Assembly (NCBI RefSeq): GCF_012275375.1
Contig: NZ_JAAZQJ010000006.1
Coordinates: 248,001 to 312,000, forward strand
Length of the DNA: 64,000 nt
Direction of reading: 5' to 3'
Source of the DNA: Dyella sp. SG609
GTDB taxonomy: Bacteria; Pseudomonadota; Gammaproteobacteria; Xanthomonadales; Rhodanobacteraceae
The notes below the pieces were generated by a model that was given only the letters and a program-made list of their open reading frames with translations, did no database searches and was not told the origin of the DNA. Made by a program: the position numbers and the translations under genes. Positions 29,538-36,056 of the stretch are shown here, piece after piece (position 1 is the stretch's first letter; every line of letters starts with the position of its first letter).

Positions 29538-29557
29538 CGTCGGCCATTCGGCCGACG
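29538..29557 (+). other. Hairpin in the leader of the undA-like gene
   Basis: CGTCGGCC-ATTC-GGCCGACG, an 8-bp perfect stem with a 4-base loop ending 26 bases before the start codon. It could stabilise or regulate the leader; no U-run follows, so it is not a typical terminator. Confidence 0.4.
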
Positions 29558-29583: not shown

Positions 29584-30357
29584 ATGACTACGCAATTCGA
29601 ACGCACTGGCGCGCTGACCGAGCTGAGCAGCTATCCGCACTGGGCGCAGGACATCGTCCACGCTGCCGAGGAGACCAAGCGCACGGTGGTGGACCACGAG
29701 GTATGGGAGCTGATGATGAACAGTCGTCTTCACGCTGCCTCCACGCGAGACTTCATGGTGGGGATCTGGCCCGTCATCGAGCGTTTCCCGGCCTACATGG
29801 CGCTGAACCTGCTGAAGACCCAGTACGGCCGGACCCAGGGCGACAACCTGGCCCGGCGCTGGCTGGTGCGGAACATCCGCGTGGAGCAGAACCACGCCGA
29901 GTACTGGCTGGATTGGGCCGAAGCCGCGGGGATCAGCCGCGACGAGGTCCTGCACGGGTTGCCGCCCCATGGCACGGGAGCCTTGCCCGACTGGTGCGAA
30001 CAGGTGAGCACCAAGGCTTCCCTCGCCGCCGGCATGATCGCCACCAATTACGCGGTGGAAGGTGCAACCGGGGAGTGGTCCCAGAAGGTGTTCGAGAGTC
30101 CCTACAAGGAGGCCTTTGCGACCGAGACCCGGGGCAAGGGTTTGCGTTGGCTCCAACTTCACGCGGCCTACGACGATACTCATCCTTGGGAAGCGCTCGA
30201 AATTGTGTGTACGCTAATGGGGACGGCGCCGACGCCGGCCGAGGTGGCTTATCTGGGGGAATGCGTGCGACGCAGCTACGTCAGCATGCAGATCACCTTG
30301 GACCGCTGCCTGGACGTGCGCCAGGATCCGTGGTCAGTCAGTGAAGCCGCAGCCTGA
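29584..30357 (+). CDS. undA: UndA-like non-heme iron oxidase (medium-chain 1-alkene synthase)
   Basis: 257 residues of the TenA/PqqC heme-oxygenase-like diiron superfamily. Several stretches match what I recall of Pseudomonas UndA: RTGALTELSSYPHWAQ, ARRWLVRNIRVEQNHAEYW, ATNYAVEGATGEWS and LHAAYDDTHPWEALEIVCTL. Iron-ligand candidates are E101, H104, E159, H193, D197 and H200, against E101, H104 and H194 reported for UndA. UndA oxidatively decarboxylates C10-C14 fatty acids to terminal alkenes such as 1-undecene. GGAG lies about 8 bases before the ATG. A PAS-GGDEF-EAL gene follows 70 bases later. The alternative is another member of the same fold (CADD- or TenA-like), which I consider less likely. 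Confidence 0.85.
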   Translation: MTTQFERTGALTELSSYPHWAQDIVHAAEETKRTVVDHEVWELMMNSRLHAASTRDFMVGIWPVIERFPAYMALNLLKTQYGRTQGDNLARRWLVRNIRVEQNHAEYWLDWAEAAGISRDEVLHGLPPHGTGALPDWCEQVSTKASLAAGMIATNYAVEGATGEWSQKVFESPYKEAFATETRGKGLRWLQLHAAYDDTHPWEALEIVCTLMGTAPTPAEVAYLGECVRRSYVSMQITLDRCLDVRQDPWSVSEAAA

Positions 30358-30427
30358 CGCAACGCGTTTGCCGGGCGGGACGCATCGCAGGCAGTGGATG
30401 TCGGCTTGAATGAGGACACGGGACGCT

Positions 30428-33169
30428 ATGCGTAACGCTCGTACTGGCTTGCGAAGACCATTGCTGCAAAGGCTGCTGCCGCTGGCCTACGCACTGGCGG
30501 CAATGCTCGGGCTGGTCCTCGCCCTTACATGGGGAGCCTTGCAGCTCCAGGTGACTCTCGCCGGTTTTCTCAACGGCGAGAGTCTTTGGTCCAAGGCGCA
30601 GAAGCAGGCGGTGGTGGACCTGGAGAACTACGCCACCAAGGGCGATCCGGTCTACCTGCAGGGTTTCCGCCGCAACTACGCGGTGCTGGTGACCGACCGC
30701 TATGCGCGCGACAAGATCGACAGCGGCGACTTCGACCGGGCCGAAGTGATCGAGGCCTTCCGCCGCGGCGGGGTGATCCCCTCGGCGATCCCCGGCATGG
30801 TTTTCATCCTGCAGTATTTCTCCGCCGCCCCGCATATGCGCGAGGCGCTCGCCGACTGGCATTCGGTGGACGGCCAGATCGCCGAACTGAACGTGATCGC
30901 CGGCGAACTCGAACGCAGTTACGCCGCCGGCGCGCTGGCCCCGGCCGAGCTGGCGCGGCAGCGCGACCGCATCCACCAGCTCAACGATTTCATCGAGCCG
31001 CGCAGCAGCAGCTTCTCGCTGCACATCGCCAACGGCGCCACCTGGATGGGCCGGGTGCTGTTCGCCAGCGTGGCCCTGATCACCCTGGTGGCCGGACTGC
31101 TGTGGCTGCGCATGGCGCGCCGCATCCTGGCCGGCATCCGCGGCACCGAGGAACGCTACCGGCTGCTGTTCGACAGCGCCGCCTCGGCCATCGTGATGGT
31201 GGACGAGTCCTCCGGGCAGATCCTCGACGCCAACCGCACCGCCGCGCGCTGGACCGGGCGCGGCCCGGACGAACTGCTGGGCGAGTCGTTCGCGCGCCTG
31301 TTCGCCTCCGGCGAGGCGCCGCAGGACAGCAACGTCGCCCTGCTGCGCGATGCCGCCGGCGAGGCGCGCCCGGTGGAAACGCAGAGCGCGCTGGCGCTGT
31401 GGGGCGAGCGCTTCGTGCGGCAGGCGATCATCAGCGACGTGTCCGAGCGGCTGTCGATGGAGCACGAGCGGCGCATCGCCTCCGAAGCGCTGGCCGGCAT
31501 CGCCGAGGGCGTGGTGATCGCCGACGCCGAGCGCCGCATCACCACGGTCAACACTGCCTTTACCCGCATCACCGGCTATGACGCCGATGCCGTGCGCACG
31601 CGGCGCTTCGACGAGACGCGCACCCAGCTCGACGGCTCGCCGCTGCCGGCTTCGATCTGGGACACCGTCGCCAACGGCGGCAACTGGAAGGGCGAAGTGT
31701 CCAGCCGGCGGCAGGACGGCAGCAGCTATCCGGAACTGCTCAGCATCAGCGCCATCCGCGACACCTACGGCCGCGTGCAGCACTACGTGGCGGTGCTGAC
31801 CGACATCACCGCGATCAAGGCCGACCGCCTGCGCCTGGAACACCTGGCCACGCACGACCCGCTCACCGGCCTGGTCAACCGCGCCGAGTTCGAGCGCCTG
31901 TGCGAGCACGCCATCCTCGGCGCCACCCACGGCCGCAATGCGGTGGCGGTGCTGTTCGTGGACCTGGACGCCTTCAAGGTAGTCAACGACAGCTACAGCC
32001 ACGCGATCGGCGACAGCCTGCTGGTGAAGGTGGCCGAGCGCATCGACCGCGCGCTGGGTCCGCACGACGTGGCCGGGCGCATCGGCGGCGACGAGTTCAC
32101 CGTGCTGCTGGGCCGCCTGCCCACCCGCGAAGACGCGCGCACCATGGCCACGCGCCTGCTGTCCTCGCTGGCCGAGCCGGTGCTGGTGGGCGACTACGAG
32201 ATCGCGCTCAGCGCCAGCATCGGCATCGCCGGCTTCCCGCTGGACGGCGGCGACCCGATCACCCTGATCACCAATGCCGACGCAGCCATGTACGTGGCCA
32301 AGACCGAGGAGCGCAATGCGTTCCGCTTCTACACGCCGCTGATGCATGCCGACGCGCGCCGCCGCCTGATGCTGGGCGTGGACCTGCGCCAGGCCCTGGT
32401 GCGCGGCGAGCTGTACCTGGTCTACCAGCCGAACGTGGAGCTGCGCACCAGCCGCATCGTGGCGGTGGAGGCGCTGCTGCGCTGGCGCCATCCGGAACGC
32501 GGCGTGCTGCTGCCGGACGAATTCATCCCGATGGCGGAAAGCCTGGGTCTCATCCGCCAGATCGACGAATGGGTGATGCGCGAAGCCTGCGCCCAGGTGC
32601 GCCGCTGGGACCAGGCGCACCTGCCGCCGCTGCGCATGGCGATCAACGTCTCGGCCAGCACCTTCGGCCACCGCACTTTCATCGAGCGCCTCAGCGCGGC
32701 GCTGGATGCCGAACAGCTGGACGGCAAGCGCCTGCTGGTAGAGATCACCGAGAGCGCGATCCTGCGACTGGGCGAACAGACCGACCGCACCATGCACGCC
32801 TTGCACGCGCTGGGCGTGGGTGTGGCGATCGACGACTTCGGCACCGGCTATTCGTCGCTGGCCTATCTGAAGCTGTCGGCCATCGCCTTTTTGAAGATCG
32901 ACCGCTCCTTCATCAACGGCCTGCCGCAGGATTCCAACAACGCCGCGATCACCGAGGCGATGCTCGCCATCGCGCGCAGCCTGGGCCTGCGGCCCATCGC
33001 CGAAGGCATCGAGACCAAGGAGCAGCACGAGTTCCTGCTCAAGGCCGGCTGCGCCGAAGGCCAGGGCTTTTATTACTCGCGCCCCGAAGCGGCCGAGGAG
33101 ATCGCACGCCAGCTGGTGCGCAGCCCGAAGCCCGCGAAGCTGCGGCTGGTGCCGCCGAAGCAGCGTTGA
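30428..33169 (+). CDS. Membrane PAS-GGDEF-EAL cyclic-di-GMP enzyme
   Basis: 913 residues. Membrane helices at about 16-40 and 207-230 enclose an extracytoplasmic sensor region. Two PAS domains follow (about 240-340 and 350-465), then GGDEF (about 470-640; intact motif GGDEF near 553) and EAL (about 655-905; EALLRW near 681, DDFGTGYSSLAYL, EGIET). Both catalytic signatures look intact, so it may make and break c-di-GMP. The RxxD inhibitory site before GGDEF is absent (GPHD instead). The start at 30428 has GGGA upstream; an in-frame ATG at 30410 adds six residues. It lies close behind undA on the same strand. Confidence 0.93.
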   Translation: MRNARTGLRRPLLQRLLPLAYALAAMLGLVLALTWGALQLQVTLAGFLNGESLWSKAQKQAVVDLENYATKGDPVYLQGFRRNYAVLVTDRYARDKIDSGDFDRAEVIEAFRRGGVIPSAIPGMVFILQYFSAAPHMREALADWHSVDGQIAELNVIAGELERSYAAGALAPAELARQRDRIHQLNDFIEPRSSSFSLHIANGATWMGRVLFASVALITLVAGLLWLRMARRILAGIRGTEERYRLLFDSAASAIVMVDESSGQILDANRTAARWTGRGPDELLGESFARLFASGEAPQDSNVALLRDAAGEARPVETQSALALWGERFVRQAIISDVSERLSMEHERRIASEALAGIAEGVVIADAERRITTVNTAFTRITGYDADAVRTRRFDETRTQLDGSPLPASIWDTVANGGNWKGEVSSRRQDGSSYPELLSISAIRDTYGRVQHYVAVLTDITAIKADRLRLEHLATHDPLTGLVNRAEFERLCEHAILGATHGRNAVAVLFVDLDAFKVVNDSYSHAIGDSLLVKVAERIDRALGPHDVAGRIGGDEFTVLLGRLPTREDARTMATRLLSSLAEPVLVGDYEIALSASIGIAGFPLDGGDPITLITNADAAMYVAKTEERNAFRFYTPLMHADARRRLMLGVDLRQALVRGELYLVYQPNVELRTSRIVAVEALLRWRHPERGVLLPDEFIPMAESLGLIRQIDEWVMREACAQVRRWDQAHLPPLRMAINVSASTFGHRTFIERLSAALDAEQLDGKRLLVEITESAILRLGEQTDRTMHALHALGVGVAIDDFGTGYSSLAYLKLSAIAFLKIDRSFINGLPQDSNNAAITEAMLAIARSLGLRPIAEGIETKEQHEFLLKAGCAEGQGFYYSRPEAAEEIARQLVRSPKPAKLRLVPPKQR

Positions 33170-33283: not shown

Positions 33284-33988
33284 TCAGTGCAACTGCACGT
33301 CCACGACGCTTTCGTCCGGCTTGTACTCCGCCGGGAACAGCTCCTTCAGGTGGCGCACCTTCGGCGCATCGTTGATCACGATGTACGGATAGTCCGGATG
33401 CAGCCGCGCGAAATCCTGGTGGTAGGCCTCGGCCATGTAGAAGGCCTTCAGCGGCGCGACCTGGGTGACGATGGGGGCGCGGAACACGTGGGCCTGGTCG
33501 AGCTGGGCGATATAGGCGCTGGCTACGCGCTTCTGCTCGTCGTTGCCGTAGAAGATCACCGAGCGGTACTGCGTGCCGGTGTCCGGGCCCTGGCGGTTGA
33601 GCTGGGTCGGGTCGGTGGCGACCGAGAAGAACACCTGCAGCAGCTTGCCGTAGCTGACCTTGGCCGGGTCGTACACCACCTTGACCGATTCGGCATGGCC
33701 GGTGTTGCCGCCGGAGACCTGCTCGTAGCTGGCCGTGGCGGCCTGGCCGCCGGCATAGCCGGACCAGACCTTCTTCACGCCCTTGACGTGCTCGAACACC
33801 GATTCGACGCCCCAGAAACAGCCGCCGGCGAATACGGCGATCTGCTCGCCCTGGGCGGGCGCGGCATCGACGGTGGGCGCCGGTGCGGCGACGGGTGCGC
33901 TGTCGGCGGCAACGACGCCGCAGGCGGTGGTGCCGGCGGCCAGCATCAGGCCGGCGAGCAGGCGGAGGCGGGGCAGGCGGGTACGCAT
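33284..33988 (-). CDS. msrA: Exported peptide-methionine (S)-S-oxide reductase
   Basis: 234 residues. It reduces methionine-S-sulfoxide in proteins. The catalytic motif is [15 protein letters not shown] (Cys about residue 57), followed by the family marks [36 protein letters not shown] and [11 protein letters not shown]. An N-terminal signal ([17 protein letters not shown]) with a possible, not canonical, lipobox places it in the periplasm or outer envelope. The start at 33988 is chosen for the signal peptide; an in-frame ATG lies at 34003. It is divergent from the arylamine acetyltransferase gene. Confidence 0.93.
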
Positions 33989-34129
33989 GGTGCGAGGCTC
34001 CATCGATCGAAAGGGGCGGCGCGCTGGGCGGCGCCGTTCGAACTGTTTTCGCCCACGAATGGCACGGGGTTACCTCCGGCCGCGGTGCTATGGTGCCGCC
34101 TCCCCAGCCTACCCCCCAAGGTGTTTTCC

Positions 34130-35391: not shown

Positions 35392-35619
35392 TTACGGCGC
35401 GCGCTTCACGCGAATGCGGATGTCGTCGATCTCGACGACCTGGCCCGCGTGGATCTTGCAGGTCTTGCGCAGTTCCTGCTGCCCGTCGACGTATACCGCG
35501 CCGCTGGCCACGATCGCCTTGCCGGCGCCGCCGCTGTCGCACAGGCCGGTCAGTTTCAGGAGCTGGTTGAGTTCGACGTGCTCGTGGCGGTCGTCGAGGT
35601 CGAAATCGATGGACTGCAT
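35392..35619 (-). CDS. S4-domain RNA-binding protein, YbcJ-like
   Basis: 75 residues, one S4 domain. Pattern: HVELNQLLKLTGLCDSGGAGKAI, then VASGAVYVDGQQELRKTCKIHAGQVVEID, the classical S4 turn of small YbcJ/YaaA-type RNA-binding proteins. Its ATG shares a base with the stop of the barstar gene (TGATG), so it is translationally coupled to barstar and, through it, to the ribonuclease gene. The RNA target is unknown. Placement next to a ribonuclease and its inhibitor is suggestive. Confidence 0.88.
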   Translation of the reverse strand: MQSIDFDLDDRHEHVELNQLLKLTGLCDSGGAGKAIVASGAVYVDGQQELRKTCKIHAGQVVEIDDIRIRVKRAP

Positions 35620-36056
35620 CAGAAATCCGGGTCGTTGAAGGCGCTTTCGGGCATGGCGAAGAAAGCGAAGAACGGTTTGCTGTCTTCCTGCCAGGTCTCG
35701 GCGGCTTCGTCGAGGATGTCCAGCAGGATGTCGAAGTCTTCTTCGCTGGCTTCGCGCAGGTCGTCGGCGTGGTCGAACAGCAGCAGGTAGCCGGTGCCTT
35801 CGAGCCAGTCCAGGTCGTTGACGGCGTCGGCCAGGGCGTCCCAGTTGTCGCCGAATTCGGCGGGCAGGCGCCAGGAGGCTTTCAGGCGGCGCAGCAGTTC
35901 GTCCTTGCCGGTGCAGCCCTTGAGGCTGGTGCGGGCGACGAACAGGCCCTGGCTGGAACCCTGGGCGCCCAGCGGATCGAGGTCTTCCTCGATCACGAAG
36001 AACACGCCGCCGGCGTCGGGGTCGAGCAGGTCGATGTCGTGGTCCTGGGGAGTCAT
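35619..36056 (-). CDS. Barstar family ribonuclease inhibitor
   Basis: 145 residues, cytoplasmic, very acidic. The barstar core is LKGCTGKDELLRRLKASWRLPAEFGDNWDALADAVNDLDWL, in which the Asp/Trp residues of the barnase-binding helix (GDNWDAL, about 70-76) are conserved. Barstar folds bind and block barnase-type ribonucleases. It follows the ribonuclease gene with an ATGA overlap, so the inhibitor is made together with the enzyme. Longer than classical barstar (about 90 residues) by an N-terminal extension. Confidence 0.9.
   Translation of the reverse strand: MTPQDHDIDLLDPDAGGVFFVIEEDLDPLGAQGSSQGLFVARTSLKGCTGKDELLRRLKASWRLPAEFGDNWDALADAVNDLDWLEGTGYLLLFDHADDLREASEEDFDILLDILDEAAETWQEDSKPFFAFFAMPESAFNDPDF

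Follow-up and report, generated by a model that had tools for sequence, protein, structure and literature searches.

In a 64,000-nucleotide stretch of the genome of Dyella sp. SG609 (hereafter the window), a gene for an orthologue of the alkene-forming decarboxylase UndA is followed directly by a gene for a sensor protein with PAS, GGDEF and EAL domains. From the whole analysis, we consider it likely that the first gene encodes a true UndA making 1-alkenes, iso-branched ones among them, and that it is paired in a two-gene unit with a c-di-GMP sensor which would read the alkene or the fatty acid. The Dyella enzyme very probably turns fatty acids into volatile alkenes, the membrane sensor encoded beside it probably controls a biofilm-related signal, and the adjacency of the two genes hints at a joint role of volatile and sensor. 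The sensor-GGDEF-EAL neighbour, absent from a first-pass annotation of this DNA that had described the UndA-type protein, is the more interesting part of the locus. The features are listed below with the evidence for each.

29584..30357, + strand: undA, predicted diiron fatty-acid decarboxylase (UndA orthologue, 257 aa); sequence, ligands, tree and predicted fold
29884..29895, + strand: ligand codons E101 and H104 (ExxH); alignment
30058..30060, + strand: ligand codon E159; alignment
30148..30150, + strand: codon W189, the equivalent of UndA W190; alignment
30160..30183, + strand: ligand codons H193, D197 and H200; alignment
30410..33169, + strand: second gene, for the sensor-PAS-PAS-GGDEF-EAL protein (919 aa when counted from the first ATG); ORF and domain search
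30410..31147, + strand: N-terminal sensor domain, modelled as all-helical and flanked on either side by hydrophobic helices; model and hhalign
31151..31807, + strand: region containing the two PAS domains (residues 248-303 and 361-466); domain search
31847..32317, + strand: GGDEF domain with intact motif; domain search and motif
32381..33085, + strand: EAL domain with intact EAL and DDFG motifs; domain search and motif

The undA ORF (29584-30357 on the forward strand) starts with ATG and has a G+C content of 64%, against 69% in the window. The first-pass annotation had described a protein of 257 residues with E101, H104, E159, H193, D197 and H200 in the UndA pattern, and all of these are present in the ORF. 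The alignment that it had proposed as a check shows that the six diiron ligands (three His and three carboxylate residues) and W189 are identical in 95/95 aligned UndA or UndA-like rows. W190 of UndA is a suggested site of radical initiation (PMC13108848; the papers cited here by PMC number were accessible in part, and what is said of them refers to those parts). Judged from the sequence, this ORF with its ligand pattern is not a product of chance.

The UndA-type assignment made in that annotation agrees with database searches, phylogeny and predicted fold. A phmmer search against the PDB sequences matched the window protein to 3oql (9e-78), 4wwj (3e-73) and 6p5q (named 'UndA', 5e-73), the next match having an E-value of about 1, and the identity to two stretches of Pseudomonas UndA is 46-49%. 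The protein matches Haem_oxygenas_2 in Pfam (3e-11), and its sole NCBIfam match is CADD (TIGR04305), at 33 bits, which is below the cut-off of 200. The AlphaFold2 model (pLDDT 92) agrees over its full length with lauric-acid-bound UndA; the top seven rows in Foldseek are chains of 3oql, 4wwj, 4wx0 and 6p5q with TM scores of 0.89-0.95, while the listed CADD, TenA, BesC and PqqC structures reach 0.49-0.87 with 8-18% identity. In a tree of 59 rows, the window UndA, Pseudomonas UndA and the two UndA-like proteins L112 and L126 form one clade (98/99), and the CADD, TenA-like and PqqC rows fall outside it; of the two outcomes named earlier as refuting the assignment, a place with TenA or CADD and a lack of the six ligands, neither was seen. 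The outgroups, on very long branches, are one CADD row, related rows, two rows matching PF03070, which are the TenA-like rows and include no bona fide TenA, and nine PqqC rows named from sequence; the three PqqC rows checked all pass the PqqC NCBIfam cut-off, and the CADD row passes its own. The branching order among the window's group, Pseudomonas UndA and L112/L126 is not resolved in this tree. The Rhodanobacteraceae rows form a clade (96/98), which takes in L111 as well, although the short contig that carries L111 belongs to a different family. Thirteen positions, each at least 90% conserved, differ between the window's group (81 rows) and Pseudomonas UndA (10 rows), for example Q102 beside the ligand E101, which is L in Pseudomonas. 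By ligands, predicted fold and ancestry, the window gene very probably encodes a true UndA, a soluble diiron enzyme of the heme-oxygenase fold, whose activity would be that of the characterised Pseudomonas UndA.

An identity as TenA, CADD or PqqC, with which the protein has the fold in common, is ruled out by the tree, which sets the window UndA apart from the CADD row and the PqqC rows, by the 8-18% identity to those structures and by the CADD score itself, since the weak match that might speak for CADD reaches 33 bits of the 200 required; we give this identity practically no chance. It is improbable, though less so, that a member of the UndA clade among the HDO enzymes has here come to act on other substrates, such as 3-hydroxy acids, or to catalyse a different reaction, such as hydroxylation, and forms no terminal alkene. 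Such a shift would fit an identity to the Pseudomonas stretches of just 46-49%, the 13 positions fixed differently in the two groups and the many reactions run by HDO enzymes with mostly the same 3H/3C ligand set (PMC13108848). Against it, the ligands, the W190 equivalent and most of the surrounding motifs are unaltered, the model matches lauric-acid-bound UndA from end to end, and a C12 1-alkene has been reported from a member of the family (PMC9330711). A decarboxylating, alkene-forming UndA thus remains the preferred reading of the gene.

The host, called Xanthomonadales-like in the first-pass annotation, is rightly placed there and can be narrowed to Dyella in the Rhodanobacteraceae; the nearest named relative among the matches listed is Dyella marensis (99% protein identity). 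The gene is found in 6/6 Dyella genomes, the present one included, and in 166/233 Rhodanobacteraceae genomes (147/192 of those of good quality, 20/26 genera), which rules out a recent isolated acquisition by this genome. The same annotation had raised the possibility of a volatile-producing trait in a genus from which it knew of no description: no report of UndA in Rhodanobacteraceae was found in a literature search with most subscription journals outside its reach, but the gene itself is ordinary in Dyella and common in the family. In a sample of the order, 102 of 398 genomes match undA, 101 from the same family and the remaining one at 19 bits. The class sample gave five matches among 369 genomes, with the own genome included and one at just 20 bits, and the phylum sample 11 among 398, namely two Rhodanobacteraceae, eight members of one other family (f171) and one more distant genome. 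Since the f171 proteins group with those of Pf-5 and P. syringae in the UndA tree, and the one neighbouring protein searched matches the PA0861 structure, their loci are regarded as Pseudomonas-like. The SG609 genome has one UndA; a second, weaker Haem_oxygenas_2 match on contig C14 (L116, 30 bits, above the cut-off) was not picked up by the UndA search. Two further observations concern single genomes. One family genome (G049) has two undA and two sensor matches, which suggests a duplicated pair, and a 6.6-kb contig of a genome assigned to another family (L111/L152 in G763) holds a Rhodanobacteraceae-like undA with the start of a sensor gene, either by a binning error or by transfer.

The sensor gene lies directly downstream of undA and on the same strand in 81/81 loci (the window and its best 80 relatives), with a median gap of 63 bp (range -49 to 138, measured to the first possible start codon). 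These 80 loci are the best among the matches listed, that is, the closest relatives (60-99% identity) and no random draw; 70 of their records carry the names of Rhodanobacteraceae genera or of the family, and 10 are metagenomic or broadly named, one of them as 'Candidatus Eremiobacteraeota'. The sensor gene also stands next to undA in 5/5 further loci of the family with a UndA identity of 52-64%, which brings the total to 86/86, counts that are not independent because the genomes are related. In the family as a whole, 182 genomes are sensor-positive, and these include every one of the 166 with undA; 16 have the sensor without undA (five of them with a strong sensor match, E 6e-69 or better), and 51 have neither. 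The other neighbours vary, the upstream urocanase being matched in 12/80 other loci and the downstream MsrA in 38/80, and they were rejected as members of the unit for this variability. Adjacency, strand and spacing make it very probable that undA opens a two-gene unit, the two genes of which would be co-transcribed.

The DNA upstream of undA, inspected by eye in 20 loci, showed no motif common to all, and a promoter and terminator scan gave no promoter-like site (0.3 expected) and one terminator-like site (1.7 expected). A perfect inverted repeat lies at 29539-29556, about 28 bases before undA, and several relatives were seen by eye to have other G+C-rich inverted repeats. Behind the sensor gene follow the MsrA gene (33284-34003, - strand) and a gene for a Barstar-family protein (35619-36056, - strand). 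The DipA phosphodiesterase gene of Pseudomonas adjoins msrA as well, which would fit a DibA-like output half in the sensor protein.

As for the architecture of this protein, translation may in truth begin at Met7 (30428), a residue that does not vary in alignment A3. The hydrophobic helices at both ends of the modelled sensor domain, judged by eye, are probably membrane helices. No Pfam match to the sensor domain was obtained in the three proteins scanned (window, L149 and L090), and a structure search with its model gave a best E-value of 0.1 and none at or below 0.001. A pattern search located the GGDEF, EAL and DDFG motifs in 76/81 loci; of the remaining five, four are truncated where the contig stops, and in L057 the motifs are seen when the sequence is read. 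The best NCBIfam match of the PAS-GGDEF-EAL half is the DibA phosphodiesterase (NF045675), at 581 bits, short of the cut-off of 980. With these domains and motifs, the partner is probably an inner-membrane sensor that sets c-di-GMP.

A comparable arrangement exists in the Pseudomonas-type loci, where in 8/8 cases undA is immediately preceded by a PAS-GGDEF-EAL gene of the same orientation, with a gap of 42-76 bp. The neighbour in L149, the sole one searched among the Pseudomonas-type (f171) loci, matches the structure of PA0861, known as RbdA, with 884 bits. The association itself is already published for Pseudomonas, where undA is described as always associated with rbdA, a statement credited to Rui 2014 (PMC10614000). 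Homology between the N-terminal sensors of the window type and the Pseudomonas type is shown by hhalign (probability 99.7, E 1e-25, 222 columns, 24% identity, with 7/8 Pseudomonas-type loci in the alignments and L146 left out), and a stretch ESxW(S/A)KxQK is common to both; by hhalign, the window partner therefore has an RbdA-type sensor. Its PAS-GGDEF-EAL half, however, is not of the RbdA type. The match of the window partner to the PA0861 structure 5xgb (201 bits) ranks eleventh, behind 5m3c, 4rnh, DosP and others, and the catalytic half of L149 finds two closer matches elsewhere in the SG609 genome (205 and 202 bits, versus 186 for the window partner); the output half of L149 has PRK09776 as its best NCBIfam match, below the cut-off. 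Moreover, the catalytic-domain tree splits the window-type from the Pseudomonas-type halves (100/100), with 6/8 Pseudomonas-type loci and a single comparison row from the own genome (L159, the only one of five GGDEF-EAL stretches to enter, the others being too short); L208 was dropped.

GGDEF-EAL genes also adjoin those of the UndA-like proteins L112 and L126 (stretches L151 and L150), which come from two further families, are 35% identical and have the complete set of six ligands. The N-termini of these neighbours differ, with GAF and PAS in one and nothing above the Pfam cut-off in the other, and the two proteins are a possible sister subfamily of UndA with the same link to c-di-GMP. With the neighbours checked in all four sampled lineages of the UndA clade, UndA adjoins a GGDEF-EAL gene in each, and the comparison of the window type with the Pseudomonas type shows a tie to this particular sensor in two lineages, which differ in gene order and output.

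The sensor domain is also found outside the undA loci. In the phylum sample, 29/249 genomes have it, 7 with UndA and 22 without a UndA match in the samples searched for UndA, and across the proteobacteria it occurs, as seen by eye, on GGDEF-EAL, lone GGDEF and histidine-kinase-like proteins (L182-L204). The neighbours of 17 sensor genes from loci without undA showed no common partner by eye (the eighteenth stretch, L222, was left out). In a sensor tree, from which the broken match L203 was omitted, the UndA-linked sensors of the window type and the Pseudomonas type fall apart, so that the pairing may have had two origins or undergone frequent loss. An AU test rejected a single clade of UndA-linked sensors (p = 0.02, for a group named after the tree had been seen and with long branches); for the Pseudomonas-type sensors alone as a clade it gave p = 0.371, so that their split by two undA-less rows is not firm.

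A single ancient origin of the pairing with many later losses, in place of two origins, is an explanation to which we give appreciable weight, though we lean against it. The homology of the sensor domains would fit it, and losses of undA are plausible given the five family genomes with a strong sensor match and no undA match; the AU result, with its post hoc group and long branches, as well as the opposite gene orders and the different output halves, point to separate origins. Just as much weight goes to the view that undA and the sensor gene are mere neighbours, through linkage inherited in each family or through co-regulation, and that the sensor reads the redox state or some other small molecule. 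Adjacency inherited within a family is indeed not independent evidence, and the sensor domain exists without undA in many bacteria, also on what appear by eye to be lone-GGDEF or histidine-kinase-like proteins. On the other side, the upstream and downstream neighbours change within the group while the pair stays, the same kind of sensor stands beside Pseudomonas undA in reversed order and with a different output half, and the UndA-linked sensors are not one clade in the tree. A functional link between enzyme and sensor is the reading that we carry forward.

With regard to the product, the first-pass annotation had expected terminal alkenes such as 1-undecene; the alkene prediction is kept, but the products may be iso-branched 1-alkenes as well as 1-undecene. 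In Dyella and the rest of the Rhodanobacteraceae, medium-chain fatty acids are largely iso-branched. The substrates of UndA are reported to be C10-C14 fatty acids (PMC12344977, PMC6410514). Among five Luteibacter strains, iso-C11:0 was present in 5/5 (3.6-4.7%), together with iso-C11:0 3-OH and iso-C13:0 3-OH; iso-C13:0 was present in 3/5 strains at no more than 0.5%, with no value detected or reported for L. yeojuensis DSM 17673, C14:0 reached at most 0.5%, and straight C12:0 is absent from the table (PMC9965599). In a study of volatiles, 10-methyl-1-undecene was specific to Dyella (now Luteibacter) yeojuensis, D. japonica not being credited with it in the part of the paper accessible; compounds were named there from NIST20 spectra and peaks below 2% of the total were not counted, and the authors speculate that the compound attracts C. 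elegans or triggers egg-laying (PMC9330711). By its formula, 10-methyl-1-undecene corresponds to iso-C13:0 that has lost CO2 and gained a terminal double bond, as in the UndA reaction, and its occurrence in L. yeojuensis thus makes branched terminal alkenes a likely product of the enzyme. L. yeojuensis SU11, which is not shown to be the strain of that study, has an intact undA (L090), and undA is also present in Dyella japonica (L110). The same compound name has been reported for Pseudomonas aeruginosa and a Pseudomonas strain from olive roots, so that the branched assignment could be a library error. We regard iso-branched terminal alkenes as the likely product of the UndA of this family; the literature search found no data on activity, product or ligand binding for a Rhodanobacteraceae UndA or its sensor.

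Based on the Pseudomonas enzyme, UndA would form terminal alkenes by decarboxylation of free C10-C14 fatty acids, with O2 and a reductant, and would probably release 10-methyl-1-undecene from iso-C13:0 and 8-methyl-1-nonene from iso-C11:0, with 1-undecene being formed where lauric acid is available. The sensor protein, presumably in the inner membrane, would set c-di-GMP through its PAS, GGDEF and EAL domains, and its sensor domain might read the alkene, or the precursor fatty acid, for a decision on biofilm or motility. We put forward, tentatively and as something rather doubtful, that UndA and the RbdA-type sensor act as synthase and receptor of a volatile signal, an iso-branched alkene in Rhodanobacteraceae and a straight one in Pseudomonas, and that this pair was assembled at least twice; the double assembly is suggested by the same kind of sensor joined to different c-di-GMP output halves in opposite gene orders. 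In a Pseudomonas, 1-undecene is reported to signal biofilm maturation through the air, and RbdA is among the proteins that the authors of that work intend to study (PMC10614000). If our proposal is true, the sensor domain would be the missing receptor for communication by 1-alkenes. A second family with the same sensor type, but another output half and gene order, points to the sensor domain as the part that matters, and through its pairing the receptor question becomes directly testable. A further prediction is that common soil bacteria emit branched volatile alkenes.

Compared with the known systems, the window protein has the fold, the six ligands and the W190 equivalent of Pseudomonas UndA (4wwj/4wx0/6p5q, and 3oql of P. 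syringae), shares a clade with it (98/99) and is 46-49% identical, whereas 13 positions are fixed otherwise, the order of undA and the sensor gene is reversed, and the fatty acids of the host are mainly iso-branched, as far as the Luteibacter data tell (PMC9965599). Relative to 10-methyl-1-undecene of L. yeojuensis, a species with undA (SU11), the C12 terminal alkene fits UndA acting on iso-C13:0; the difference is that no enzyme is named in the accessible part of that report and the identification is by NIST20 spectrum (PMC9330711). DibA-type c-di-GMP phosphodiesterases (NF045675) are the best NCBIfam match of the partner's PAS-GGDEF-EAL half, but the partner stays below the cut-off (581 versus 980 bits) and has an additional N-terminal sensor and PAS. 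With rbdA-undA of Pseudomonas, the locus has in common a PAS-GGDEF-EAL gene that lies close to undA in the same orientation and has a homologous N-terminal sensor; it differs in that undA comes first, two PAS stretches are matched instead of the one in L149, and the GGDEF-EAL half is not of the RbdA type.
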